Positions 952 through 24,848 of a DNA stretch of 64,000 bases are shown here, one piece after another. The translations under genes and the position numbers were made by a program. Source of the stretch: Erysipelotrichaceae bacterium (GTDB lineage Bacteria > Bacillota_I > Bacilli_A > Erysipelotrichales > Erysipelotrichaceae); the NCBI GenBank assembly GCA_017512885.1, contig JAFWEP010000003.1:1-64000 (forward strand), written 5' to 3'. How positions within the stretch are numbered: the first letter of the stretch is position 1; the number at the start of each line of letters is the position of its first letter. The notes beneath the pieces were generated by a model, which saw only the letters and a list, made by a program, of their open reading frames with translations, made no database searches and had not been told where the DNA came from.

Positions 952-1692
952 CTACACTTCGTTCCAGGTATACTCGCAGTTGAACGTATACTCATAATCG
1001 AGATCGAAGTTGTACGTGAAATCCGCAAAGAACGCCTTCCCTTCCATGTCGTAAGCCACAATCGTTGACGACATGACGGGGTGATCGTCGGCGACCCCGA
1101 ACTTCCGGCAGATGTCATGATCCATGTATATGATCTTTACCGTATTGCGGCTGTGTGAGAATGCGATCCCGAATTTCACGCAGATCATATGGATGATCGA
1201 CATTTCCAGGTCTGTGACTTTCAGATCCGGAATGGATTCTTTCAGGATATAGCCTTCGCAGTACGCAGTATTCGGCTTCTGGTCCGTGCCGCGGACCCTG
1301 GACAGTTTCCACAGTTCCGTGCCTTCTTCGCATTCAAGAAGCTCGCACAGCTTTCCGCTTGCCTTCAGCGATTCCAGCTTCACATCTGAGATCGTCGGTC
1401 TGCGCAGGTTGCGGGCTAGGGTGTTTGTCAGGGTCGGTATCCGGCTCAGTGCAGACGCATCCGGGTATCCTTCTCCCTTGAATGTCCCTGCCCCCTGTAC
1501 CCGGTATATTTCACCGGCAAGTTCAAGAATATGCAGTGCCTGACGGACCGTACCTCTGCTTACAGAATATCTCTCCATCAGTTCGTTCTCCGATGGGATC
1601 TTCTCGCCATACTTAAGAGTCATGAGATCGGTTCTCATGTGCTCGGCAATCTGTGAATAGAGGGCTTGTCCGCCAGGTGTTTTTGCAATCAT
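952..1692 (-). CDS. GntR family transcriptional regulator, HutC/UTRA type
   Basis: The protein is 246 residues. An N-terminal winged helix (about 10-75) contains GEKIPSENELMERYSVSRGTVRQAL, the GntR recognition-helix region. The C-terminal half (about 90-240) resembles the UTRA ligand-binding domain of the HutC subfamily, which senses small metabolites. Its ATG overlaps the kinase stop codon as ATGA, so it is translationally coupled and is the last gene of the nucleoside operon. The divergent promoter of the same locus carries the HutC-type operator core GTCTATAC (8406-8413), so autoregulation and control of both operons is likely. The ligand is probably a nucleoside or ribose-phosphate intermediate of the locus (inference). 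Confidence 0.9.
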   Translation of the reverse strand: MIAKTPGGQALYSQIAEHMRTDLMTLKYGEKIPSENELMERYSVSRGTVRQALHILELAGEIYRVQGAGTFKGEGYPDASALSRIPTLTNTLARNLRRPTISDVKLESLKASGKLCELLECEEGTELWKLSRVRGTDQKPNTAYCEGYILKESIPDLKVTDLEMSIIHMICVKFGIAFSHSRNTVKIIYMDHDICRKFGVADDHPVMSSTIVAYDMEGKAFFADFTYNFDLDYEYTFNCEYTWNEV

Positions 1693-2714
1693 TTCAGCTC
1701 CAAATCCGTAAACCGGCCTGTCTGTTTCGAGGTTTCATTAACAGTATAACCGTTATTCTTCAACATTGTAACCACTTCGTCAAAAGTTGGCACATTCCTT
1801 CCCGTTCCGAACTTCGCGGCTTTTACAGCCCCTGCTGCGTTGCCCAGGATGATGCAGGTGTCCAGATCGAATCCTTCAAGATACCCGTACATGAACGTCG
1901 ACAGGAAAGAGTCGCCGCAGCCCATCGTGTCCACCATCCTGACCTTGAAGCCGGGATACCATTTCCCTGCAAGTCCCTGTGCCGTTACATAGCATCCTCT
2001 GGCACCGTATTTCATGAGAATGAGGGCCTCCGTTCTCTCCTTCAGGTATTCCGCAGCCTTTTCCGGGTCTGCGATGCCCGTCATAGCCTTACCTTCAACC
2101 TCATTCATGCAGAAAACATCCACTTGTTCCAGGAGTTCCTTCTTCAGCTCTTCGGAAGCGTTCTCCAGGCAGGGGCCCGGATCGAAGAACACCGGTATGC
2201 CGTACTCATTTGCCTTGTGCATGATCTTCAGGGCAAGATCGTAGAAATGATGCCCCTTGGCCAGATAATAACCGTTCATGTAATATGCCTGGCACAGTTC
2301 CAGCTTCGACATGATGTTCTCATCGCTGTCAAAATCGACACCCGGCATATAGGACAGGAACGTGTGCCTTCCCTCGGCATCCACGATGCAGTTGGCTACC
2401 GGGAGCCTGTAACCGTCGATCCGCTTAAGGCAGGAGGTCTCCACGCCGAGCTCGGTGTAGGCATTGATCATGAAGTCCGAATAGACGTCATCCGTTCCTA
2501 CGGCGCCGACAGGGAGTGCTTTGCCGCCCATGCGGTTGAAGCAGATGATCAGGTTGCTCTCGCCGCCGGGTTCCAGCTGCGAGTCCGATGCGGTCACCGT
2601 AATGCCGCCTTCAATGGGAAAAGTCCCGTCCAGCTTTATGATGTTGTCGACTGTGGACGCACAAAGGACGAACATTCCGTACGGTTTGTCAGTTTTTGCC
2701 TTTTTCCTGTACAA
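1689..2714 (-). CDS. PfkB family carbohydrate/nucleoside kinase (PsuK-like)
   Basis: This is a ribokinase-fold sugar kinase. It has the substrate-side motif GGESNLIICFNRMGG with VGAVGTDD, and the C-terminal signature DTMGCGDSFLSTF carrying the catalytic Asp and anion hole (G-C-G-D in place of the usual G-A-G-D). The start is uncertain. A TTG at 2714 has GAGGAG ten bases upstream and overlaps the preceding gene. An ATG at 2675 starts right at the first beta strand but has no ribosome site. Further TTG codons lie up to 2750. With PsuG across the shared promoter, pseudouridine kinase is the simplest role. A ribose-1-phosphate or other nucleoside kinase is possible given the eIF2B-like neighbour. 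Confidence 0.85.
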   Translation of the reverse strand: MYRKKAKTDKPYGMFVLCASTVDNIIKLDGTFPIEGGITVTASDSQLEPGGESNLIICFNRMGGKALPVGAVGTDDVYSDFMINAYTELGVETSCLKRIDGYRLPVANCIVDAEGRHTFLSYMPGVDFDSDENIMSKLELCQAYYMNGYYLAKGHHFYDLALKIMHKANEYGIPVFFDPGPCLENASEELKKELLEQVDVFCMNEVEGKAMTGIADPEKAAEYLKERTEALILMKYGARGCYVTAQGLAGKWYPGFKVRMVDTMGCGDSFLSTFMYGYLEGFDLDTCIILGNAAGAVKAAKFGTGRNVPTFDEVVTMLKNNGYTVNETSKQTGRFTDLELK

Positions 2715-3735
2715 TTCGGTAAATCTCCTCTCCTGCCCAGTCAAAGTCAAGAGCCGGATTCGCTTCCCTGAATTCCTTCAGCACGTCTTCGGGGATGGAG
2801 CTCAGGCCTTTGTATGCGCCCGCGACCATTCCTGCGATGCAGGCAAATGTATCCGTGTCGCCGCCGATGTTTGCGCATGCCTTGACAGTCTCCATAACAT
2901 CGCCGTCATTCGCCGCAAACAGGCCGATCGCCACTGCGACTGCCGGCTGGATATCGCCAGTGCAGCCGATATTGTCCTCAATCAGCTTGGACGCTTCTTC
3001 CGGTGTATCCGCTTCATATGCATACTTGATGGCATCCAGAAGCTTCGGCAAGACTCTCGGCCCGTAGGCCACCCGGGCCTCTTCCAGGCCGATCCGCTCG
3101 CCTTCCTTGGCACCGTATACCGCAGCCTTGAGAATCGTATGAACATCCGCGGTCTCTGTCAGGGCTTCCGCAATCGCGCAGGCAATCGCACAGGCGCCGG
3201 AGTAGGCGTGCTGGGTTCCGTGGGAGACCTTGGTCATGGTAACAGCCGTTCTGACTGCACCGTCCCAGTCTCCGGGATTGACGAGGCCGCTTCCGTCAAC
3301 GCGCATCGCTGCACCGTCGGAGATGCCTCTTCCGTATTTCTTGCCGGCTTTGCCGAGAGTAACCGGATCCGCACCTTTCAGATAGTCCGCAAACCATTCG
3401 CGCATTGTCGGTCCGCAGTTGCGGGGATAGTACTTCGGATAGAGCTTGGACCAGCTGACCAGTCCTTCCGCGGCGGCTTCAACCGTGAGCTCGCCGTTTG
3501 TCTTGATGACGGCCTTGATCATCTCATACATCTGGGATGTATCATCCGTAACCTCTCCGGAAACATTGCCCAGGCCGTAGATATTGTCACCCGGATCATA
3601 GAACTTGTCAATCGGGTGTCCGAATGTATCGATGATTTCCTGGCGGCTGTACGCTTCGCCGGGAACACCGATGGCATCGCCGATTCCTGCCGCATACATG
3701 CTGCCGAGGATCCTGTCCTTCAAATCATATCCCAT
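2689..3735 (-). CDS. ADP-ribosylglycohydrolase (DraG/ARH) family protein
   Basis: The protein is 348 residues, usual for the family. N-terminal GSMYAAGIGDAIGVPGE and GEVTDDTSQM carry the first metal-binding residues. GCTGDIQPAVAVAIG and ANIGGDTDTFACIAGM carry the second, as in di-magnesium ARH/DraG hydrolases that cleave N- or O-glycosidic bonds of ADP-ribose. The ribosome site AAGGAGG precedes ATG 3735. The gene lies between the importer lipoprotein and the PfkB kinase, so it probably acts on an imported ribosyl compound rather than on modified protein (inference). The real substrate cannot be read from the sequence. Confidence 0.9.
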   Translation of the reverse strand: MGYDLKDRILGSMYAAGIGDAIGVPGEAYSRQEIIDTFGHPIDKFYDPGDNIYGLGNVSGEVTDDTSQMYEMIKAVIKTNGELTVEAAAEGLVSWSKLYPKYYPRNCGPTMREWFADYLKGADPVTLGKAGKKYGRGISDGAAMRVDGSGLVNPGDWDGAVRTAVTMTKVSHGTQHAYSGACAIACAIAEALTETADVHTILKAAVYGAKEGERIGLEEARVAYGPRVLPKLLDAIKYAYEADTPEEASKLIEDNIGCTGDIQPAVAVAIGLFAANDGDVMETVKACANIGGDTDTFACIAGMVAGAYKGLSSIPEDVLKEFREANPALDFDWAGEEIYRIVQEKGKN

Positions 3736-3809: not shown

Positions 3810-4835
3810 TTATTTGTGGAGCGGCTCTCTGCCGATTGTGATCTCACCACTTGCGATCTTCGCAGCCAGATCCTCAACCTCTTTCTTCAGCTCCTCGGAT
3901 GCCAGGTCATTGGTCAGTGCGAACTCATAGATCGCAGCGCCTTCCTTGACGCCGTACTCATGCTGAGTGCCGCCTTCGAAGTTTCCGCTGACTGCCTTGT
4001 CGATGAAGGCAATGACCATGTTCTCGAAGAAGTTCAGAGTGGAACCGATCTCGCTGTTCGGAGCTGCATCAGGATAGTGCGCATCGCACGCAGCAAACAT
4101 GATGCCTGCTTCTTCCGCAGCCTGAGCGCAGCCTGTTCCGGATCCGCCGGCAGCGCCGAAGATAACGTCAGCACCCTGCTTGATCAGCTGCTCGGCATAG
4201 TCCTTGCCGATTGTCGGGTCTGTGAAGGAGTTGCAGTACGCAACCAGGTCCTTGACATCGAGTCCGGCATAGACGATACCCTGCTGATAGCCGGCCAGAA
4301 TCTCGTTGATGCCCTGGGAGTCATTTCCGCCGACGAAGCCGACAGTTCCTGTCTTGGTCATCTTCGCTGCAACATAGCCCTGCAGGAAGGATGTCTCGGT
4401 TCTGTTCAGGTGGAACTCTTCAATGTTCGGATGAGCAGCATAATCTTCATCAGTCTTTTCAGCCTGCAGGATACCGAACTTGATATCCGGGTACTGAGCG
4501 GCTACTGCGCATGTGGCATCCCACATATCGGAGTAAGTCGTGATGATGATGTCGAATCCGTCCTGTGCGCAGGCGAGTACTTTCGGCTCGTATGTATCGG
4601 CGCCGATCGCCTCGATGGTCTTGATTTCGATGTCATCATGCTTTGCCTCATAGTCCTTCAGACCGGCAGCCAGGTTCTGGAGCCATTCGGACGAGTCAAA
4701 TTCCTGATAGCTGATAAACGCGATTCTGAGCGTATCGTCTTCGACAGGCTCAGACGGAGTGTCGGAGCTTCCGCCGCAGCCGATCAGCGACAAGCTGAGC
4801 AGCGCAGCCATCAAGCCACCTAATACCTTTTTCAT
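3810..4835 (-). CDS. BMP family lipoprotein, nucleoside ABC transporter substrate-binding protein
   Basis: The protein is 341 residues, beginning with a lipoprotein signal peptide that ends in LSLIGC at about residue 20, followed by a Ser/Gly/Pro linker. The rest matches the BMP/Med family of periplasmic-type binding proteins: IAFISYQEFDSSEW, then FGILQAEKTDEDYAAHPN and FLQGYVAAKMTKTGTVGFVGG. Known members (PnrA, BmpA, NupN) bind ribonucleosides. It belongs with the two permeases and ATPase upstream. A strong AGGAGG site precedes ATG 4835, and the following hairpin suggests it is the most expressed member. Confidence 0.9.
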   Translation of the reverse strand: MKKVLGGLMAALLSLSLIGCGGSSDTPSEPVEDDTLRIAFISYQEFDSSEWLQNLAAGLKDYEAKHDDIEIKTIEAIGADTYEPKVLACAQDGFDIIITTYSDMWDATCAVAAQYPDIKFGILQAEKTDEDYAAHPNIEEFHLNRTETSFLQGYVAAKMTKTGTVGFVGGNDSQGINEILAGYQQGIVYAGLDVKDLVAYCNSFTDPTIGKDYAEQLIKQGADVIFGAAGGSGTGCAQAAEEAGIMFAACDAHYPDAAPNSEIGSTLNFFENMVIAFIDKAVSGNFEGGTQHEYGVKEGAAIYEFALTNDLASEELKKEVEDLAAKIASGEITIGREPLHK

Positions 4836-4898
4836 TTTTCTCTCCTCCTTAATGAGATTTCTTATTCAAACATCAGCCTTGCTGTGTTTAAACCTTTG

Positions 4899-5834
4899 TT
4901 AGTTGCTGTGAAGTTCGATCGCCTGCCGTTCCGCACTCTTTTTCTTCATGTTGTTGGAGACAAGGCGGATGATGCGCGGCAAGAGCGCTGCAGTCAATGC
5001 CATAGCATACGGAATTGCTCCGAGCAGGTAAGCGGAATAGCCGGATGTCGATAGCTGGATGCTGAGCGACTCGGATACGCCGAACAGCATGCATGTCCCG
5101 AGCGCCACAAGCGGATGGGCGCCGGCAAGCGTGACGGCAGCCAAAGCCGTGAAACCGCGGCCGTTTGTCATGCCTACGTTGAACATGTAGACAGACAGCG
5201 CCAGTTCCGCGCCGGCCAGTCCGCACAGAGCGCCGTTCAGCAGGAGCGCCGTGTACTTGACCTTTTTGGTATTTACACCCGCAGCCAGAGCCGCTTCCTC
5301 ATTCAGTCCGGTGATACGCATGTTCAGGCCGAACTCGGTATGGAACAGTACGTAGTAGAGGATGAACGGAAGCAGCAGCGACAGGTAGACCAGAACAGAC
5401 TTGTTGTTCAGAACCGATACAACGGGGATACTGTCCAGGAATCCGATATGGATCGTCGGCAGCGCCAGTTCGCTCGGCATGACGAACCGTCCGCTGGTGT
5501 TGAAGATCGGCTTCAGCAGGTAGCGGGTCAGTCCGGTGACCAGCGTATTGATCGACAGCGCGCATATGACCGGGTTGACCTGCAGCTGAAGGATGAACAC
5601 CGAGTAGATAACCGCTGTAAGGACGCCGGCAAGCACGCCGCAGAGCACGCCCATCCATACGTTCTTGAATACAAAGGCACCCACGACTGCAAAGAAGCAG
5701 GAGAACAGCGTGAATCCTTCCAGGGCGAGGTTGAAGATGCTGACTTTCTGTGCCAGCAGGCAGCCCATGGCAATCAGCAGAATGGGAGCGGCATGTCTGA
5801 CACCCAGCTCAAGCAATGATATCCAATCCATCAT
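4899..5834 (-). CDS. Nucleoside ABC transporter permease (NupQ-like)
   Basis: The protein is 311 residues and strongly hydrophobic, with about eight membrane segments. It shows the RbsC/BPL_2 permease pattern: APILLIAMGCLLAQKVSIFNLALEG near the N-terminus (the usual form is G..N.G.EG), and the coupling loop region TGLNEEAALAAGVNTKK at about residues 185-201, which contacts the ATPase. The start at 5834 overlaps the stop of the previous permease (ATGA). It is the second transmembrane subunit of the importer. Confidence 0.9.
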   Translation of the reverse strand: MMDWISLLELGVRHAAPILLIAMGCLLAQKVSIFNLALEGFTLFSCFFAVVGAFVFKNVWMGVLCGVLAGVLTAVIYSVFILQLQVNPVICALSINTLVTGLTRYLLKPIFNTSGRFVMPSELALPTIHIGFLDSIPVVSVLNNKSVLVYLSLLLPFILYYVLFHTEFGLNMRITGLNEEAALAAGVNTKKVKYTALLLNGALCGLAGAELALSVYMFNVGMTNGRGFTALAAVTLAGAHPLVALGTCMLFGVSESLSIQLSTSGYSAYLLGAIPYAMALTAALLPRIIRLVSNNMKKKSAERQAIELHSN

Positions 5835-6868
5835 TCCACCACCCTTCTTCTCTTCAGATCAATCTGTGCGGCATTGAAGAACTTGATTGTTGCGAAGAAC
5901 ATGATCAGGCCCTGCACGCAGTCGATCAGTTCGGTCGGGACCTCTGTCAGTACCGACAGCAGTACGGATCCGGATTTCAGGGCACCCAGCAGAAGCGAGC
6001 CGAACATCATGCCGATCGGCGTGTTGTTTCCGATGAACGCCGCGGTCATTCCGTCCGTTCCCATGCCGGCTGCGAATTCGTTATAGATCATATGGAAGTA
6101 TCCGAGAATCTCTCCCATGCAGCAGAGCGCCGACAGGACGCCGCCGGTTACCGCTGCCATCAGCAGCACCTTGGTGGCGTCGATTCCGGAAGCCTGGGCA
6201 AACTGCTTGTTCTTGCCGGTTACCGTCAGCCTGTGACCGGGGATCGTGCTTCTCAGGATGAATGCGTACGCGATCACGATCAGCACTGCACCGACCGTGA
6301 TCACCGGAACGGGGATATGTTCCGGTATCTCGATCGAGACGATAGAGGATGTCCTCTTCGCGGCGATCGGGCTGAAGGCGATCAGGTGCTGGCAGATGAA
6401 CTTTGTCAGGTAGTTCAGCATGACGCCGACAACGACTTCATTAACTCCGAGCTTGAACTTGGCAACAGCCGGTATCAGGCAGGTCAGCGCCCCGGCAGCC
6501 GCGGCAGCCAGGATCATCAGCACCAGCCGGAGCGGACCGGGCAGTCCTTCCGTCCAGAACGAGACGAAGACCATCGCAAGCGCGGAGGTATACAGCTGGG
6601 CCTCCTGCGAAATGTTGAAGTATCCGCAGCGGTTGCAGACCGAGAAGGAATACGCCATCAGCATTACCTGTATCGCAAAGCGGACGGTATTGCGGATCGC
6701 CGTCGGGCTGCCGAACGCGCCTTTCAGGATCGCGGAGTACGCATTGATGGGGCTCTCGCCGACCAGCAGTACCATGAAGCCGCCGATCAGGAAGGCGATC
6801 AGCACGGCGACGATGGAGTTGCTGGAGTTGATCAGATTCCTTATCAGATTTGACGTTTTATCTTTCAC
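5831..6868 (-). CDS. Nucleoside ABC transporter permease (NupP-like)
   Basis: A membrane permease of about 345 residues from the same family as the next gene. FSVCNRCGYFNISQEAQLYTSALA marks the pore-lining region, VTGKNKQFAQASGIDATKVLL the ATPase-coupling loop, and GMGTDGMTAAFIGNNTPIG the C-terminal family pattern. The preferred start is GTG 6868, which has GGAGG eight bases upstream; a second GTG at 6877 sits right against that ribosome site and is less likely. It overlaps the ATPase gene by 11 bases and is translationally coupled. Confidence 0.88.
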   Translation of the reverse strand: MKDKTSNLIRNLINSSNSIVAVLIAFLIGGFMVLLVGESPINAYSAILKGAFGSPTAIRNTVRFAIQVMLMAYSFSVCNRCGYFNISQEAQLYTSALAMVFVSFWTEGLPGPLRLVLMILAAAAAGALTCLIPAVAKFKLGVNEVVVGVMLNYLTKFICQHLIAFSPIAAKRTSSIVSIEIPEHIPVPVITVGAVLIVIAYAFILRSTIPGHRLTVTGKNKQFAQASGIDATKVLLMAAVTGGVLSALCCMGEILGYFHMIYNEFAAGMGTDGMTAAFIGNNTPIGMMFGSLLLGALKSGSVLLSVLTEVPTELIDCVQGLIMFFATIKFFNAAQIDLKRRRVVE

Positions 6869-8378
6869 TTCCGGCACCTCCCATCAGAAGTCCAATTTCT
6901 TCTTCTGTCGTATGCGCAATGTCCGTAACCTCGCCCTGGATCTGGCCTTCATAGAAGATGACCATCCTGTCGCTGAGCGACATCAGCTCTTCAAGGTCGG
7001 CGCTGACAAGAATGACAGCCGTTCCTTTTTCCTTTTCTTCCAGCAGTTTCTCACGGACGAAGTTCGTCGCGCCGATATCGAGTCCTCTTGTCGGCTGGGC
7101 GGCGATCAGCACTTTCGGTCCGCGTTCGATCTCCCTCGCCAGCACGATCTTCTGCATGTTTCCGCCGGACAGCTGACCGACTTCCTTTCCTTTCGTCATG
7201 CCGAAAATCGAGTACCTGTCTATCAGGTCTTCGCAGTAGGCGGAAATGCTGTCCTTGTTTAATACAACTCCGTTGGAGAATGCCTTGTTGTATTCATTTC
7301 CGGAGATGACGTTGTCCTCGATCGTTCCGTTGAGAACGAGACCGACCGTCATTCTGTCTTCGGAAATGAATCCGATGCCGGCTGCGCGCCGCTTGCTTAC
7401 AGATGCTCTGGAAACATCTTCTCCGTCAATGATGATCTCGCCGTGCGACTGCTTCAGCAGCCCGATGAGCGTGTTGATCAGTTCGGTCTGCCCGTTGCCT
7501 TCAACGCCGCCGACACCCAGGATTTCGCCCTTGTTTACTTTCAGGGAAAGGTCCTTCAGCTTTGCAATGCCGAGCTCATCGAAATACCACAGGTTACGGA
7601 CTTCCAGAATCGGCTCTACGTCCGTACCCCTGTTCTCGTTCTGTATCAGGTCGACATCCCGTTTGCCGATCATCGCGCGGGCAATGTCCGTCTCGTTCGC
7701 GTCGCCGCGCATCCAGCCTTCCTGCACTACCCTTCCGTTGCGCATGACCGTGATCCGGTCTCCGACACGGACGACTTCCCGCAGCTTGTGGGAAATGAAC
7801 ACGATAGCATCGCCGTCTGCTTTCAGGTCGTCGATGATCCGGAACAGCTCCTCCGATTCCTGCGGCGTAAGGACTGCCGTAGGCTCGTCAAGGATCAGGA
7901 TCCTGGCGCCGAAGAAAAGAACCTTGATGATTTCCACCTTCTGGCGTTCGCCGACGGAAAGATACTTCAGCGGCTGATCCGGGTCTGCCTTCAGGCCGAA
8001 CCGCCTGAGCAGCACGGATACCTTTTCTTTCGCCTGCTTGTAGTCAATGGCGATGCCCTTCTTCGGCGGATCGCCGAGAATGACGTTCTCGAGAATGGAC
8101 AGTTCAGGAACCTGCATAAAGTTCTGGTAGACCATTCCGATGCCGAGATCGCGGGCACCCTGCACATTGTAGCTGTGCACTTTGCCGTCGATCAGAATCT
8201 GGCCGCCGTCCGCCGTATAGGCTCCGTACAGTATCTTCATCAGCGTGGACTTGCCTGCACCGTTCTCTCCGACCAGTGCATGGCATTCCCCGGGATACAG
8301 ATCCAGGCTGACATGATCGTTGGCAAGAACTCCGGGGAACTTTTTGACAATTTCTTTAAGCTGAACAATTGGTTCCAT
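6858..8378 (-). CDS. Nucleoside ABC transporter ATP-binding protein (NupO-like, two ATPase domains)
   Basis: About 506 residues with two fused ATPase domains, as in RbsA/NupO. The first domain has Walker A GENGAGKSTLMKILYG, signature LSVGERQKVEI and Walker B ILILDEPTAVLTP. The second has a degenerate Walker A (GVGGVEGNGQTELINTL), signature LSGGNMQKIVLAREI and AAQPTRGLDIGA, typical for this subfamily. The start is ATG 8378, with AGGAG seven bases upstream. A longer ORF from ATG 8423 would run through the promoter repeats and is rejected. It is the first gene of the leftward operon. Confidence 0.92.
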   Translation of the reverse strand: MEPIVQLKEIVKKFPGVLANDHVSLDLYPGECHALVGENGAGKSTLMKILYGAYTADGGQILIDGKVHSYNVQGARDLGIGMVYQNFMQVPELSILENVILGDPPKKGIAIDYKQAKEKVSVLLRRFGLKADPDQPLKYLSVGERQKVEIIKVLFFGARILILDEPTAVLTPQESEELFRIIDDLKADGDAIVFISHKLREVVRVGDRITVMRNGRVVQEGWMRGDANETDIARAMIGKRDVDLIQNENRGTDVEPILEVRNLWYFDELGIAKLKDLSLKVNKGEILGVGGVEGNGQTELINTLIGLLKQSHGEIIIDGEDVSRASVSKRRAAGIGFISEDRMTVGLVLNGTIEDNVISGNEYNKAFSNGVVLNKDSISAYCEDLIDRYSIFGMTKGKEVGQLSGGNMQKIVLAREIERGPKVLIAAQPTRGLDIGATNFVREKLLEEKEKGTAVILVSADLEELMSLSDRMVIFYEGQIQGEVTDIAHTTEEEIGLLMGGAGSER

Positions 8379-8390
8379 AGGGTCTCCTGT

Positions 8391-8396
8391 ATCATA
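8391..8396 (-). promoter_or_regulatory. Leftward promoter P1 (-10 box)
   Basis: On the minus strand, TTAGAT (8414-8419) and TATGAT (8391-8396) are separated by 17 bases. Transcription would start near 8384, inside the ribosome site (8384-8388) of the ATPase gene, so this copy would give a nearly leaderless message. The palindromic operator fills the spacer. Confidence 0.5.
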
Positions 8397-8415
8397 TGTA
8401 TAGTTGTCTATACAT
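8396..8415. promoter_or_regulatory. GntR/HutC-type operator, copy 1
   Basis: ATGTATAG and CTATACAT form a perfect 8-bp inverted repeat around TTGT. It contains GTCTATAC, which fits the HutC consensus GT-n-TA-n-AC exactly. It overlaps the -35 of the rightward promoter and the spacer of the leftward one, so bound repressor would block both. Confidence 0.7.
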
Positions 8416-8433
8416 CTAAACATATGTTATCAT
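8404..8433 (+). promoter_or_regulatory. Rightward promoter, copy 1
   Basis: TTGTCT (8404-8409), an 18-base spacer, then TATCAT (8428-8433). It would drive the eIF2B-like and psuG genes. Confidence 0.45.
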
Positions 8434-8446
8434 ATAAGCGTGAGCG

Positions 8447-8461
8447 ATGTAAACGCTTTAT
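8447..8461. promoter_or_regulatory. cre-like (CcpA) box, copy 1
   Basis: ATGTAAACGCTTTAT matches the cre core TGnAAnCGnWnnC except at its last position. Copy 2 (8516-8530) has CA in place of CG. This suggests carbon catabolite control of the locus. Confidence 0.45.
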
Positions 8462-8465
8462 TATA
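8460..8465 (-). promoter_or_regulatory. Leftward promoter P2 (-10 box), likely the main one
   Basis: TTAGAT (minus strand, 8483-8488), 17 bases, then a perfect TATAAT (8460-8465). Transcription would start near 8453 and include the ATPase ribosome site. Operator copy 2 fills the spacer. Confidence 0.6.
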
Positions 8466-8484
8466 TGTATAGTTGACTATACAT
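8465..8484. promoter_or_regulatory. GntR/HutC-type operator, copy 2
   Basis: The same 8-4-8 inverted repeat as copy 1 with TTGA as the centre, giving GACTATAC in place of GTCTATAC. The one-base change may lower affinity. Confidence 0.65.
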
Positions 8485-8502
8485 CTAAACACATGATATC
8501 AT
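8473..8502 (+). promoter_or_regulatory. Rightward promoter, copy 2
   Basis: TTGACT (8473-8478), 18 bases, TATCAT (8497-8502). The -35 is closer to consensus than in copy 1. The predicted leader before ATG 8555 is about 46 bases. Confidence 0.55.
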
Positions 8503-8554
8503 ATCAGCGTGAGCGATGTAAACACTTTCTTGGTTACAAACAGGAGGATATTGT

Positions 8555-9514
8555 ATGGCTACAACCAGAGTAAAAGACATTGATTTCAAAAGCCCTGCCC
8601 ATGTTCTGCAGGAAATAGAAAACATGAATGTCAGAGGCGGCAGCCCCTTCGGTCGCAGCGCCGCATGGGCATATAAACTGGCAATCGAGCAGGAAGAACT
8701 CGCAACCTATGATGCACTTTATGACAGGATCTGCGGACTTGCCGAGGCTCTTCATAATTACAAGCCCACGATGGCTACGATCCATAACTCATCGTCAATC
8801 GTCAAAAGCTTTGTCGAGAAAAACAAAGATCTCCCTCTGGAAGAACTCAAGGAAAGAACGGTAAAGCTGTGCGGGAACATCATCGAAAAATCATTTGAAG
8901 CGGTGGAGAAGCTGTCCGTTTACGGAGCGAATCTCATTCCGGACGGCGGAACGGTTATGATGCATTCCTATTCCTCCACTCTCATGGGAATCTACAGGCA
9001 GGCAACGCTTGACGGGAAGAAGTTTACGGTCATCTGTACGGAATCCCGCCCGCTGCGCGAATCAAGGAATGCGGTAAAGATCCTGCAGGAATGCGGCCAG
9101 CATGTGATATTCATTTCCGACGCATCTGCATGGGAGTTCATGCCAAAAGCCGACCTGATCATCATGGGCGCCGACACCCTGTGCACCGACGGTTCCGTTG
9201 CCAACAAGATCGGTTCGGCGCAGATTGCGCAGCTGGCGCTTGCATGCAAAAAGCCGGTCTACTTCGCCAGCGAACTGTACAAGCTCGACACCCGTACCCT
9301 GTACGGCCGTCCGGTGGAACTCGAAAGAAGAACCCAGTGGGAACTGGTTTCCGAAGACGACTTCCCCTCTTTCGACAACCTTGAAGTCATCAACCAGTTC
9401 TTCGATGTCACTCCGGCAAGACATATCACCGGGATCATCACGGAATACGGCGTACTGAATCCGGCGCAGCTTCTGTCCCGTTGGGATGAACTGCTGGAAA
9501 CGCTCGGGGAGTGA
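8555..9514 (+). CDS. eIF2B-alpha-like sugar-phosphate protein (ribose-1,5-bisphosphate isomerase superfamily)
   Basis: The protein is 319 residues of the eIF2B-alpha/MtnA/ribose-1,5-bisphosphate isomerase fold. It has an N-terminal helical part and a C-terminal Rossmann-like part with VICTESRPLRESRNA, IIMGADTLCTDGSVANKIGS and PVYFASE. The conserved Asp (207, in MGAD) is present. In the loop where MtnA and archaeal R15P isomerases carry the catalytic Cys (THCN), this protein has MHSYSS with Ser138, like regulatory eIF2B-alpha subunits. It may therefore bind a ribose phosphate without the usual isomerase chemistry, or use different chemistry. GGAGG precedes ATG 8555. It is the first gene of the operon with psuG. 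Confidence 0.8.
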   Translation: MATTRVKDIDFKSPAHVLQEIENMNVRGGSPFGRSAAWAYKLAIEQEELATYDALYDRICGLAEALHNYKPTMATIHNSSSIVKSFVEKNKDLPLEELKERTVKLCGNIIEKSFEAVEKLSVYGANLIPDGGTVMMHSYSSTLMGIYRQATLDGKKFTVICTESRPLRESRNAVKILQECGQHVIFISDASAWEFMPKADLIIMGADTLCTDGSVANKIGSAQIAQLALACKKPVYFASELYKLDTRTLYGRPVELERRTQWELVSEDDFPSFDNLEVINQFFDVTPARHITGIITEYGVLNPAQLLSRWDELLETLGE

Positions 9515-9584: not shown

Positions 9585-10499
9585 ATGAATATCAGAATCA
9601 ATCCTGAAGTAAAGGAGGCGCTCGCAGCCGGAAACGCAGTCGTTGCGCTGGAGTCGACGATCATATCCCACGGCATGCCCTATCCGCAGAATGTAGAGAC
9701 CGCCCTGTCAGTCGAGAAGATCATACGGGAGCACGGTGCGGTGCCTGCGACCATCGGTATCATCGACGGCACGGGTGTTATCGGCATGAACCCCGGGGAA
9801 ATTGAAGAGTTCGGAAAGAAAGGGACGGAAATCCTGAAGGTGTCCCGCCGGGATCTGCCCGTCGTGATGGCGGAAGGCCTGTGGGGCGCAACGACCGTCG
9901 CAACAACGATGATCTTTGCGGCGGAAGCAGGAATTGAGTTCTTTGCGACCGGCGGTGTCGGCGGCGTGCACAGAGGCGCTGAGCTGACGTTTGACGTGTC
10001 CGCAGACCTGGAGGAACTGGGCCGTACCAATGTGACCGTGATCTGTGCCGGTGCGAAGGCAATTCTGGATCTTCCCAAGACCCTGGAAGTGCTGGAAACA
10101 AAAGGCGTTCCCGTCCTCGGCTACGGGACGAATGAGCTTCCCGCTTTCTATACCCGTTCCAGCGGCCTGAAAGTTGACTATGCCATAAAGGATGCACAGG
10201 ATGCGGCAAAGATCGTCAAGGCCAAGCGTGATTTCAGGCTGGATGGCGGGATCCTCATCTGCAACCCGATCCCTGAAGAGTATTCCTATGACGCGGGTGA
10301 AATCAATGCCGTGATTGATGAAGCGGTGAAGGAAGCGGAATCCAAGGGCATCAAAGGCAAGGAGATCACCCCGTTCCTGCTGGCAAGGATAGCGGAAATC
10401 ACGGGCGGACGGTCGCTCGAGGCGAATATCCGCCTGGTCTTCAACAACGCAGCAGCCGGAGCGGAGATCGCAAAAGAATACTGCGCGCTGAATAAATAA
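9585..10499 (+). CDS. psuG: Pseudouridine-5'-phosphate glycosidase
   Basis: The protein is 304 residues and collinear with the PsuG/YeiN family, which reversibly splits pseudouridine 5'-phosphate into uracil and ribose 5-phosphate using a metal and an active-site Lys. Recognisable stretches are VVALESTIISHGMPYP (with the conserved Glu), VPATIGIIDG, DLPVVMAEGLWGATTVATTM, FFATGGVGGVHRGAE and NPIPEEYS. AGAAGGAGA precedes the ATG. It pairs functionally with the PfkB kinase of the divergent operon, as psuK-psuG do in other bacteria. Confidence 0.93.
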   Translation: MNIRINPEVKEALAAGNAVVALESTIISHGMPYPQNVETALSVEKIIREHGAVPATIGIIDGTGVIGMNPGEIEEFGKKGTEILKVSRRDLPVVMAEGLWGATTVATTMIFAAEAGIEFFATGGVGGVHRGAELTFDVSADLEELGRTNVTVICAGAKAILDLPKTLEVLETKGVPVLGYGTNELPAFYTRSSGLKVDYAIKDAQDAAKIVKAKRDFRLDGGILICNPIPEEYSYDAGEINAVIDEAVKEAESKGIKGKEITPFLLARIAEITGGRSLEANIRLVFNNAAAGAEIAKEYCALNK

Positions 10500-22730: not shown

Positions 22731-24290
22731 TTATTTGGCGATCAGTTCAACGGTGCCCGTCGTCCAGTCTTCACCGACTGTCAGGCGGATCTGGTAAGTA
22801 CCGTCTGCTTCTACGACGAAGTTGCTTCCGCCAGGACCATCGGAACCGAGGTTGTTGTCCCAGGACAGACCCTGACGTACCTTGAACTCTTCACCGGCCT
22901 TCAGATCGAGGTCAGCCGTCGTCCAGACGCCTTCCGGATCTTCGGCCATTTCGATATCCGTGGACCAGGTATCGCCCAGAACGGAACCGATCACGGTCCA
23001 GGCTCTCGCAACTTCCGGATCCATCGTCAGCAGTCCGGCCAGAGAATCAGCATAGGACTGCAGGATGGCCTTCAGGTCATCATCGGTCGCTCCGGCACCC
23101 TTGGCCTGGATCTCAGAACCGATAACTTTGCCAAGATCCCACCAGGCACCCGGATACTGACCCTGCGGTACAGAGTAGTTGTCCTGCAGAGCGAAGGCAG
23201 CCAGACCCGGATTGGCCTGAACAGCTTCAGAAGCAGCAGCGACCTTGTTGGTCGGGCCCCAGGCAACAGCGTCGAATCTTTCGAGCTGGCACTTTTCGGA
23301 GGTCAGATACAGCGCGATCTGGGAAGCGATCGCACCCTTTTCGGCATCGGTCTGCGGTTTGACACCGATCAGTTTACCGCCGCCAAAGGAACCCATGTGG
23401 AAGGTCTCGCCGTCGACCGTGAAGTTCGGCAGATCGGTAGCACCGAGGTTCTCACCGAGGATGTTCTCGATATCGGTGTAAGCCCAGGTACCGGTGACCA
23501 GAACAGCAGCCTTCGGATTGGCCTGGAATTCATCAGCAGCCGAGGAGCTGACGAAGGCCGGGCTGGTAACGATCTCTTTCAGGGCTTTGGCAGCCTTGAG
23601 ACCGGCATCGGAATTGAAGGTATCGTTGTAGGAAACGATATCCGTACCGTTCATGACCCATTCGGAGACACAGCCTGTACCGAAGAAGAGACCTGCTTCA
23701 TACCAGGCGGAAGTCGTTCCTTCGAAAGCGAAGGTACGTCCGGCGGCAACGCAGTCTTCCAGCAGTTTGGACAGATCATCCAGATCTTCTTCCGGAATGA
23801 CTGACTTGTCATAGTACATGAAGTAACCGTTATCCGCTGTTAACGGATAAGCATACAGGGTCTGGTCGAAGGTAGCGTTCGCTATGGAACCGGTCGTGTT
23901 TTCATTGGCGATCGTCTCGGAAGCCTTGACGCCCGGCTTTGCCAGAGCGTTGGACTGTACCAGACGGGCCAGCTGGTCCTGCGCGAAGCAGTAGACATCG
24001 GCACCGGCCTCAACGTCGTTGATCATGTAGGAAGCGGCATCGCCTTCGCCGACAGCTTCGACCGCAAAGGTCAGCTTGTATTCCGGATGTTCGGCAGCGA
24101 AGTCATTCAGCTGTTTCGTTGTCAGATCGACGATGTTGTCGGCACACCATACCTTGAAGGAGTACTCTTTCGTCTCACCGGACGGAGCTTCGCCGGAAGA
24201 TGCCGGAGCAGCCGAGCTCGAAGGGCTGCTGCAGGCGCTGAAAGAGAACGCCATCAAGAGGACGACCAATAAGGTAAATAATCTCTTCAT
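22731..24290 (-). CDS. Maltodextrin-type extracellular solute-binding lipoprotein (MalE-like)
   Basis: About 519 residues with lipobox FSFSAC and a Ser/Ala/Pro-rich linker. The family-1 sugar-binding core runs to about residue 415: YSFKVWCADNIVDLTTKQLN, VYCFAQDQLARLVQSNALAKPG and AYPLTADNGYFMYYDKS. A C-terminal beta-sandwich of about 100 residues (GVWTTADLDLKAGEEFKVR, FVVEADGTYQIRLTV) resembles the SusE/CBM-like starch-binding modules sometimes fused to such proteins. This makes it longer than a plain MalE of about 400. ATG 24290 has GAGGAGG upstream. First gene of the maltodextrin operon. Confidence 0.92.
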   Translation of the reverse strand: MKRLFTLLVVLLMAFSFSACSSPSSSAAPASSGEAPSGETKEYSFKVWCADNIVDLTTKQLNDFAAEHPEYKLTFAVEAVGEGDAASYMINDVEAGADVYCFAQDQLARLVQSNALAKPGVKASETIANENTTGSIANATFDQTLYAYPLTADNGYFMYYDKSVIPEEDLDDLSKLLEDCVAAGRTFAFEGTTSAWYEAGLFFGTGCVSEWVMNGTDIVSYNDTFNSDAGLKAAKALKEIVTSPAFVSSSAADEFQANPKAAVLVTGTWAYTDIENILGENLGATDLPNFTVDGETFHMGSFGGGKLIGVKPQTDAEKGAIASQIALYLTSEKCQLERFDAVAWGPTNKVAAASEAVQANPGLAAFALQDNYSVPQGQYPGAWWDLGKVIGSEIQAKGAGATDDDLKAILQSYADSLAGLLTMDPEVARAWTVIGSVLGDTWSTDIEMAEDPEGVWTTADLDLKAGEEFKVRQGLSWDNNLGSDGPGGSNFVVEADGTYQIRLTVGEDWTTGTVELIAK

Positions 24291-24303
24291 TGTATTCCTC
24301 CTC

Positions 24304-24325
24304 ATCGTTTTCATCAGAAAACGAT
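24304..24325. promoter_or_regulatory. Perfect inverted repeat in the malE leader, possible regulator site
   Basis: ATCGTTTTC and GAAAACGAT form a perfect 9-bp inverted repeat with a four-base centre, just upstream of the malE ribosome site. The GAAAACGATTTC arm (24317-24328) resembles a LacI-family half-palindrome. It could act as an operator or as an mRNA hairpin. Confidence 0.5.
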
Positions 24326-24337
24326 TTCCATACTTTT

Positions 24338-24366
24338 ACTGTAAACGCTTTCCCCTTCCTTGTCAA
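24338..24366 (-). promoter_or_regulatory. malE promoter with overlapping LacI/CcpA-type operator
   Basis: On the minus strand, a consensus TTGACA (24361-24366), a 17-base spacer and TACAGT (24338-24343). TGTAAACGCTTTC (24340-24352) overlaps the -10 and spacer. It fits the cre core TGnAAnCGnWnnC exactly and is also close to MalR operators, so repression by MalR or CcpA is likely. Confidence 0.7.
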
Positions 24367-24461: not shown

Positions 24462-24848
24462 ATGAAAAAATTCATGGAAGAATTCAAGACATTCGCCATG
24501 CGCGGCAATGTCATGGACATGGCTGTCGGCGTCGTCATCGGCGGTGCCTTCAAGGCCATCGTTGACTCGTTGGTCAGCGACATCATCTCCCCGCTCTTAG
24601 GTTCCCTGATGGGCAACAGTCTGGCAGAAAAAGCCGTAGAGATCAACGGCGCATCCCTGACCTGGGGCGCCTTCGTGACCGCCATCATCAACTTCATCAT
24701 CGTGGCCTTCGTCCTGTTCTTAGTCATCAAGGCCGTCAACGCCATGAAGAAGAAGGAAGAACCGGCACCGGAACCCGAGCCGGAACCGGTCAAGAGCGAC
24801 GAGACCCTGCTGCTCGAAGAGATCCGCGATCTCCTGGCAAAGAAGTAA
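24462..24848 (+). CDS. mscL: Large-conductance mechanosensitive channel
   Basis: The protein is 128 residues, normal for MscL. FKTFAMRGNVMDMAVGVVIGGAFKAIVDSLV is the N-terminal amphipathic helix and pore-lining TM1 pattern. TM2 is FVTAIINFIIVAFVLFLVIKAVN. The C-terminal part has an EPAPEPEPEP linker and an acidic helix. It releases solutes on hypo-osmotic shock. It is monocistronic with its own promoter and terminator, divergent from malE. Confidence 0.97.
   Translation: MKKFMEEFKTFAMRGNVMDMAVGVVIGGAFKAIVDSLVSDIISPLLGSLMGNSLAEKAVEINGASLTWGAFVTAIINFIIVAFVLFLVIKAVNAMKKKEEPAPEPEPEPVKSDETLLLEEIRDLLAKK

Follow-up and report, generated by a model that had tools for sequence, protein, structure and literature searches.

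A tandem repeat with promoter-like sequences on both strands and a predicted HutC-type operator in each copy, between two divergent operons of an Erysipelotrichaceae bacterium

The Locus

The window (the whole stretch of DNA that was analysed, 64,000 nucleotides long) contains a 176-bp intergenic spacer from which two sets of genes diverge, the left one beginning with the gene for an ABC transporter ATPase and the right one with that for an IF-2B-family protein. From 8378 leftwards, the order is ATPase, permeases, Bmp-type protein, ADP-ribosylglycohydrolase, PfkB kinase and GntR/UTRA regulator. The genes are the following:

952–1692, minus strand: GntR regulator of the HutC type (GntR HTH plus UTRA), predicted to act as a repressor and closing the left operon (profile and homology)
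1689–2750, minus strand: PfkB-family kinase (PF00294)
2689–3735, minus strand: ADP-ribosylglycohydrolase-family protein (PF03747)
3810–6877, minus strand: two BPD_transp_2 permeases and a Bmp/PnrA-type binding protein (profile search)
6858–8378, minus strand: ABC transporter ATPase, with which the left operon begins, its ATG being at 8378 rather than at 8423
8555–9514, plus strand: IF-2B-family protein, ribose-1,5-bisphosphate isomerase-like, under the curated cut-off (profile search)
9585–10499, plus strand: PsuG-like protein of the Indigoidine_A family (PF04227)

The choice of 8378 is based on homologues of the ATPase, which begin with MAPVVRM or MDPIVQM, equivalent to the MEPIVQL found here. 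The gene content is predicted to serve the uptake (left) and the catabolism (right) of nucleoside-like sugars. The PfkB kinase (1689–2750) shows a weak similarity, below the cut-off, to ribose-1-phosphate kinase models, and its presence in one cluster with the IF-2B protein (8555–9514) would be compatible with a pentose-bisphosphate route for nucleoside breakdown.

The Tandem Repeat

The spacer holds two 69-bp tandem units and, 69 bp apart, one predicted operator in each. The features of this region are as follows, repeats and operators being given without a strand:

8387–8455: repeat unit 1 (repeat comparison and Tandem Repeats Finder)
8456–8524: repeat unit 2 (same methods), identical to unit 1 at 62 of 69 positions
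8401–8418: predicted operator O1, TAGTTGTCTATACATCTA in the HutC register, with the core GTCTATAC at 8406–8413, overlapping an 8-4-8 palindrome at 8396–8415
8470–8487: predicted operator O2, TAGTTGACTATACATCTA, with T changed to A at 8476 relative to O1 and the core GACTATAC; 8-4-8 palindrome at 8465–8484
8404–8433, plus strand: promoter-like P1R, TTGTCT-18-TATCAT with extended TG, predicted start near 8440 (score 10.9; shuffle 95th percentile 10.2)
8473–8502, plus strand: promoter-like P2R, TTGACT-18-TATCAT with extended TG, predicted start near 8509 and 46-nt leader (score 12.9)
8424–8453, minus strand: promoter-like P1L, TTTACA-18-TAACAT with extended TG, predicted start near 8417 and 39-nt leader (score 10.2; shuffle 95th percentile 9.9)
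8493–8522, minus strand: promoter-like P2L, TTTACA-18-TATCAT with extended TG, predicted start near 8486 (score 11.6)
8448–8461, plus strand: cre-like box 1, TGTAAACGCTTTAT, one mismatch, holding the complement of the P1L -35
8517–8530, plus strand: cre-like box 2, TGTAAACACTTTCT, one mismatch, holding the complement of the P2L -35

Tandem Repeats Finder places the repeat at 8390–8528, with a period of 69 and at 91%. A sequence-only reading of this DNA had already described the duplication with 61 of 66 identical positions, a count that fits the frame 8394–8459 and 8463–8528; the duplication is borne out, as is the single-base difference which that reading saw between the two operators (T at 8407 in O1, A at 8476 in O2). 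The seven differences between the units, in unit 1 positions and as unit 1/unit 2, are 8389 G/T, 8393 C/T, 8407 T/A, 8423 T/C, 8427 T/A, 8436 A/C and 8455 G/A. The A for T at 8476 in unit 2 brings the rightward -35 nearer to the consensus (TTGACT) but takes the site off the HutC core (GACTATAC), and at 8496 the same replacement gives the leftward -10 the better form TATCAT. Because of these two changes, unit 2 has the stronger-looking pair of promoters, while unit 1 holds the operator that fits the HutC consensus better; two copies do not tell in which direction the changes went.

The RNA folds of the repeat region mirror the palindromes, with no convincing terminator among them, and the search of this region for structured RNA gave only sub-threshold microRNA matches, which were taken as chance. 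The check for a mobile origin found no match to plasmid DNA.

The Operators and Their Regulator

Each unit contains a perfect TGTATAG-N4-CTATACA (8397–8414 and 8466–8483). The background for this dyad, allowing up to three mismatches, is 0.55 expected per 64 kb; without mismatches, it occurs only twice in the whole 2.09-Mb genome, once per unit. When the 18-bp dyad was looked for in the same genome, no convincing site turned up outside the repeat (the next best had two mismatches), and O1 is the sole match there to TAGNTGTNTANACANCTA with zero mismatches.

The HutC operator consensus is GTMTAKAC (PMC4494728), a palindrome of the form GT-N4-AC. The O1 core, GTCTATAC, fits this consensus, the O2 core, GACTATAC, is off by one base, and the core in the relatives described below is GTMTAKAY. 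The earlier proposal of a HutC-type operator holds for the core and its conservation but not for its identification with the 8-4-8 palindrome, since the centre of GTMTAKAC (8409.5) lies 4 bp from that of the palindrome (8405.5); the two are best described as overlapping dyads, not as one. In those sites of the relatives that are of the left-operon type, dyad symmetry is better kept about the 8-4-8 centre, with 6, 8 and 8 complementary pairs of 11 in the sites L013A, L013C and L084A, than about the HutC centre, with 4, 2 and 3; the sites L013B and L084B do not discriminate between the two. As to the dyad register, base conservation speaks for the HutC one and symmetry for the 8-4-8 one. Additional, weaker half-sites have been reported at 7–12 nt from site centres (PMC4494728), and these could offer a way to reconcile both registers.

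The conservation of the operator was followed with a motif, TAGNTGWMTAKAY, built from the window sites together with the Anaerotruncus massiliensis sites TTTAGTTGTCTATATG, ATAGTTGTATAGATG and CTAGATGTCTATATG. It has three exact matches in the 2.09-Mb genome of the window, all at O1/O2 in this cluster, and three in the whole genome of A. massiliensis, all within the orthologous cluster, although the motif is partly circular in having been derived from sites that it then recovered in two of the three genomes. A reversed-motif control on both of these whole genomes gave zero matches. The third genome (G850, 3.4 Mb), found via its ATPase (60%), was left out of the derivation; with the looser TAGNTGNMTAKAY, in which W is relaxed to N, two of the three exact matches listed fall in the equivalent divergent region, of 362 bp. 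Since the motif owes nothing to G850, this result is the strongest evidence that the sequence would be an operator. One exact TGTATAGTTGNCTATACA apiece was also seen in four viral contigs (L089, L090, L091 and L092).

The protein encoded at 952–1692 has an N-terminal GntR HTH (PF00392, 56 bits, cut-off 27) and a C-terminal UTRA domain (PF07702, 68 bits, cut-off 23.8). GntR homologues occur in all three clusters, though at an identity of only 34–36%, and the recognition-helix stretch VSRGTVRQA is identical in them. Motif and regulator are, therefore, conserved together in three genomes, which upholds the initial choice of this protein as the likely regulator; on these comparisons the HutC reading of the operator is well supported, and the 952–1692 protein is likely to bind O1 and O2.

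The NagR-DNA structure gives a further view of this pairing: in it, Arg48 reads G-4, Arg38 reads G-5 and Gly69 of the wing contacts G-7 (PMC4333415). When the window regulator is aligned with NagR, R46 corresponds to Arg48, G67 to Gly69 and N36 to Arg38. Counting from the centre of GTCTATAC, the left half of O1 has G at -4 and -7 and T at -5, and the right half, on the opposite strand, has G at -4 and -7, A at -6 and T at -5. In the relatives, Gln stands in place of Arg38, again with T at position -5. The loss of Arg38 would go together with the loss of G-5, the contacts being transferred by homology.

Promoter-Like Sequences

Sigma-A promoters were scored with one simple scheme that used textbook weights, and the scores were compared with those of shuffles. 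On both strands, six promoter-like matches were found where the shuffles gave 1.6, a comparison to be read with the readiness of AT-rich DNA to give such matches. The best leftward candidates in the window, in A. massiliensis (L013) and in L084 all have an 18-bp spacer and an extended TG -10. In both units, positions +5 to +17 from the predicted leftward start fall on the operator; the top leftward promoters of the relatives, TTGACA-18-TACCCT and TTGACA-18-TATTCT, both with TG, have the motif at +7 to +19 and +5 to +17, respectively.

The rightward and leftward -10 elements overlap, in ATGTTATCAT in unit 1 and in the perfect palindrome ATGATATCAT in unit 2, and the predicted opposite starts (8417/8440 and 8486/8509) are 23 bp apart. 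Bidirectional promoters have been defined as having opposite starts 7–25 bp apart (PMC10268837). Because the -10 DNA is common to both directions, each unit looks, by its predicted starts, like a pseudo-symmetric bidirectional promoter.

A cre-like box had also been proposed for each unit. The 14-mer is indeed present in both, with one mismatch, but each copy contains the leftward -35. The best LacI-family protein of the genome scores 264 bits against the 442-bit cut-off of the CcpA model TIGR01481, which no protein of the genome reaches, and the cre function of the two putative boxes is unproven. Elsewhere in the window, a cre-like or LacI-type palindrome, TGTAAACGCTTTCC, lies at 24340–24353, flanked by a gene for a solute-binding lipoprotein (22731–24314, minus strand) and, as read by eye, a small mechanosensitive-channel-like gene (24462–24848, plus strand).

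The Relatives

The A. massiliensis cluster (L013) is divergent likewise, with identities of 61% for the ATPase, 57% for IF2B, 56% for PsuG and 36% for GntR. In the relatives, each direction has a promoter of its own with a single operator, the distance between the two being about 220 bp, and no single-unit form was found in them; among the three clusters compared, the compact form with a seemingly shared operator is specific to the window. Both relatives have a gene that the window lacks at this place, set between the divergent promoters and IF2B (9108–9980 in L013, 12407–13234 in L084).

A homologue of IF2B at E<=1e-60 is present in 7 of 273 genomes of the family, the window's own included. 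In L006, L007, L008 and L010, a gene read by eye as an apparent PTS-type transporter gene precedes this homologue; in L011 and L014, the transporter adjoins it, and the DNA examined contained neither a GntR match nor the motif. Close GntR homologues were absent from the other genomes of the family search and from a sample of 392 genomes of the phylum, at cut-offs (1e-40 and 1e-45) too strict for homologues of 35% identity. A class-wide sample of 391 genomes yielded no further cluster. In L009 (154–9934, a Solobacterium MAG), genes for IF2B, PsuG, a Bmp-type transporter and two ADP-ribosylglycohydrolase-like proteins are co-directional, and the motif is not among them.

A Possible Mechanism and Its Alternatives

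The reading that we consider rather probable is one of tandem bidirectional promoters, with one operator per unit, repressed by the local GntR protein, and with the second operator acting as a second gate. The 69-bp unit would be a compact two-way promoter with one GntR/HutC operator, the whole module having been duplicated in tandem. Since the rightward -35 sits inside the operator and the predicted leftward start puts the operator at +5 to +17, a single bound repressor would shut both directions. The distal transcripts (rightward from P1R, leftward from P2L) would cross the operator of the other unit, which, because the units are in series, would make of it a second gate. The repressor would leave the DNA on binding a ligand inside the cell, probably a sugar phosphate or a product of nucleoside breakdown, and uptake (left) and catabolism (right) would then be induced together. 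The control of both operons, as first proposed, is supported; we infer the use of one operator by both directions from the window only, whereas the relatives' promoters are separate. A fuller version, which we hold as doubtful, would derive the tandem repressor-gated bidirectional promoters perhaps from two separate ones and would have each operator block initiation in its own unit and act as a road-block to elongation from the other, so that the ratio of the opposite operons would stay constant and their switching would be sharper than with one unit.

The initial account was different: it had the palindrome as the spacer of the leftward promoters (TTTAGA-18-TATGAT/TATAAT), a dead P1 in this direction because its start fell in the ribosome site, and two operators that would control in a graded or cooperative manner. 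These hexamers do exist, and repression from an operator within the spacer is a classical arrangement. Nevertheless, they score 8.0 and 9.7, under the shuffle 95th percentile of 9.9, and have neither an extended TG nor a counterpart in the relatives, while the TTTACA set scores higher. For leftward transcription from P1, the most likely start is near 8417, which leaves the Shine-Dalgarno intact behind a normal 39-nt leader, so the conclusion that P2 should be the productive one falls. As for cooperativity, the 69-bp spacing is 6.57 turns at 10.5 bp, which would place the operators on nearly opposite faces, and cooperative binding is unproven. The earlier leftward promoters and the silence of P1 are probably wrong, and that account as a whole is distinctly improbable.

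Tandem repressed bidirectional promoters have also to be weighed against a division of labour in which unit 1, on the ATPase side, would serve the left operon and unit 2, on the IF2B side, the right one, the other promoters being leftovers of the duplication. Such an arrangement would resemble that of the relatives, which carry one operator per promoter close to its own gene, and the 'separate' double sites in HutC divergons (PMC4494728), and it is the proximal promoters that yield the leaders of 39 and 46 nt. All four promoter-like sequences have been kept, however, and P2L outscores P1L, unlike what decay would give; we consider it unlikely. That another regulator binds the palindromes and that the duplication is a neutral product of slippage seems very improbable. 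The 8-4-8 register does differ from the classical HutC spacing, and selection is not demonstrable from two copies in one genome; against this, the motif travels with the same GntR homologue and the same genes in three genomes, 7 substitutions in 69 positions suggest an older duplication, and two of them (8476 and 8496) improve the promoter hexamers of unit 2.

Comparison with Known Systems

If repressed bidirectional promoters in tandem are the right reading, the 138-bp element would be a natural test case, with two near-identical two-way promoters, one operator in each and seven differences between them, of which two lie in promoter hexamers and one of these also in the operator core. A 2026 paper stated that nothing is known of the control of bidirectional bacterial promoters (PMC12825309). 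The locus also allows an operator motif and a regulon to be predicted for a cluster for nucleoside or sugar-phosphate uptake that is as yet uncharacterised. A small, partial literature search returned no relevant paper on a tandemly duplicated, operator-bearing bidirectional promoter.

The nearest systems are the double-operator divergons of HutC regulators described by Suvorova et al. (2015, PMC4494728), which likewise have a HutC regulator, the core GT-N4-AC, two intergenic sites and a divergon that includes the operon of the regulator. Here, in contrast, the entire promoter-operator unit is duplicated at 90% identity, and the regulator is encoded at the far end of the left operon, away from the spacer. 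In the common-site class of these divergons, two sites lie near the centre of the spacer at a roughly constant spacing (PMC4494728); the window sites are 69 bp apart, and the distance of about 220 bp in the relatives resembles the separate-site class.

NagR (YvoA) of Bacillus subtilis and its dre site (PMC4333415) share with this locus the GntR and UTRA domains, the Arg (here R46) and the wing Gly (here G67), and the operator guanines at -4 and -7; they differ in that Asn here replaces Arg38, operator position -5 is T rather than G, and the predicted pathway is nucleoside-like rather than that of GlcNAc. NupR of Bacillus thuringiensis (PMC9430930) is also of the HutC type and regulates nucleoside uptake from beside a nucleoside ABC transporter; in the part of that work consulted, the nup site is a 20-bp imperfect one of other sequence, and a tandem bidirectional unit is not described. 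Known bidirectional promoters have a pseudo-symmetric -10 common to both strands (PMC10268837, PMC12825309), which the window would resemble in its overlapping -10 elements and its predicted opposite starts about 23 bp apart, whereas in the window there would be two such promoters in tandem, with both -35 elements, predicted starts and a putative repressor operator in each. HutC double-site divergons and bidirectional promoters are already known; the parts of this element are ordinary, and it is their duplicated layout that is unusual.
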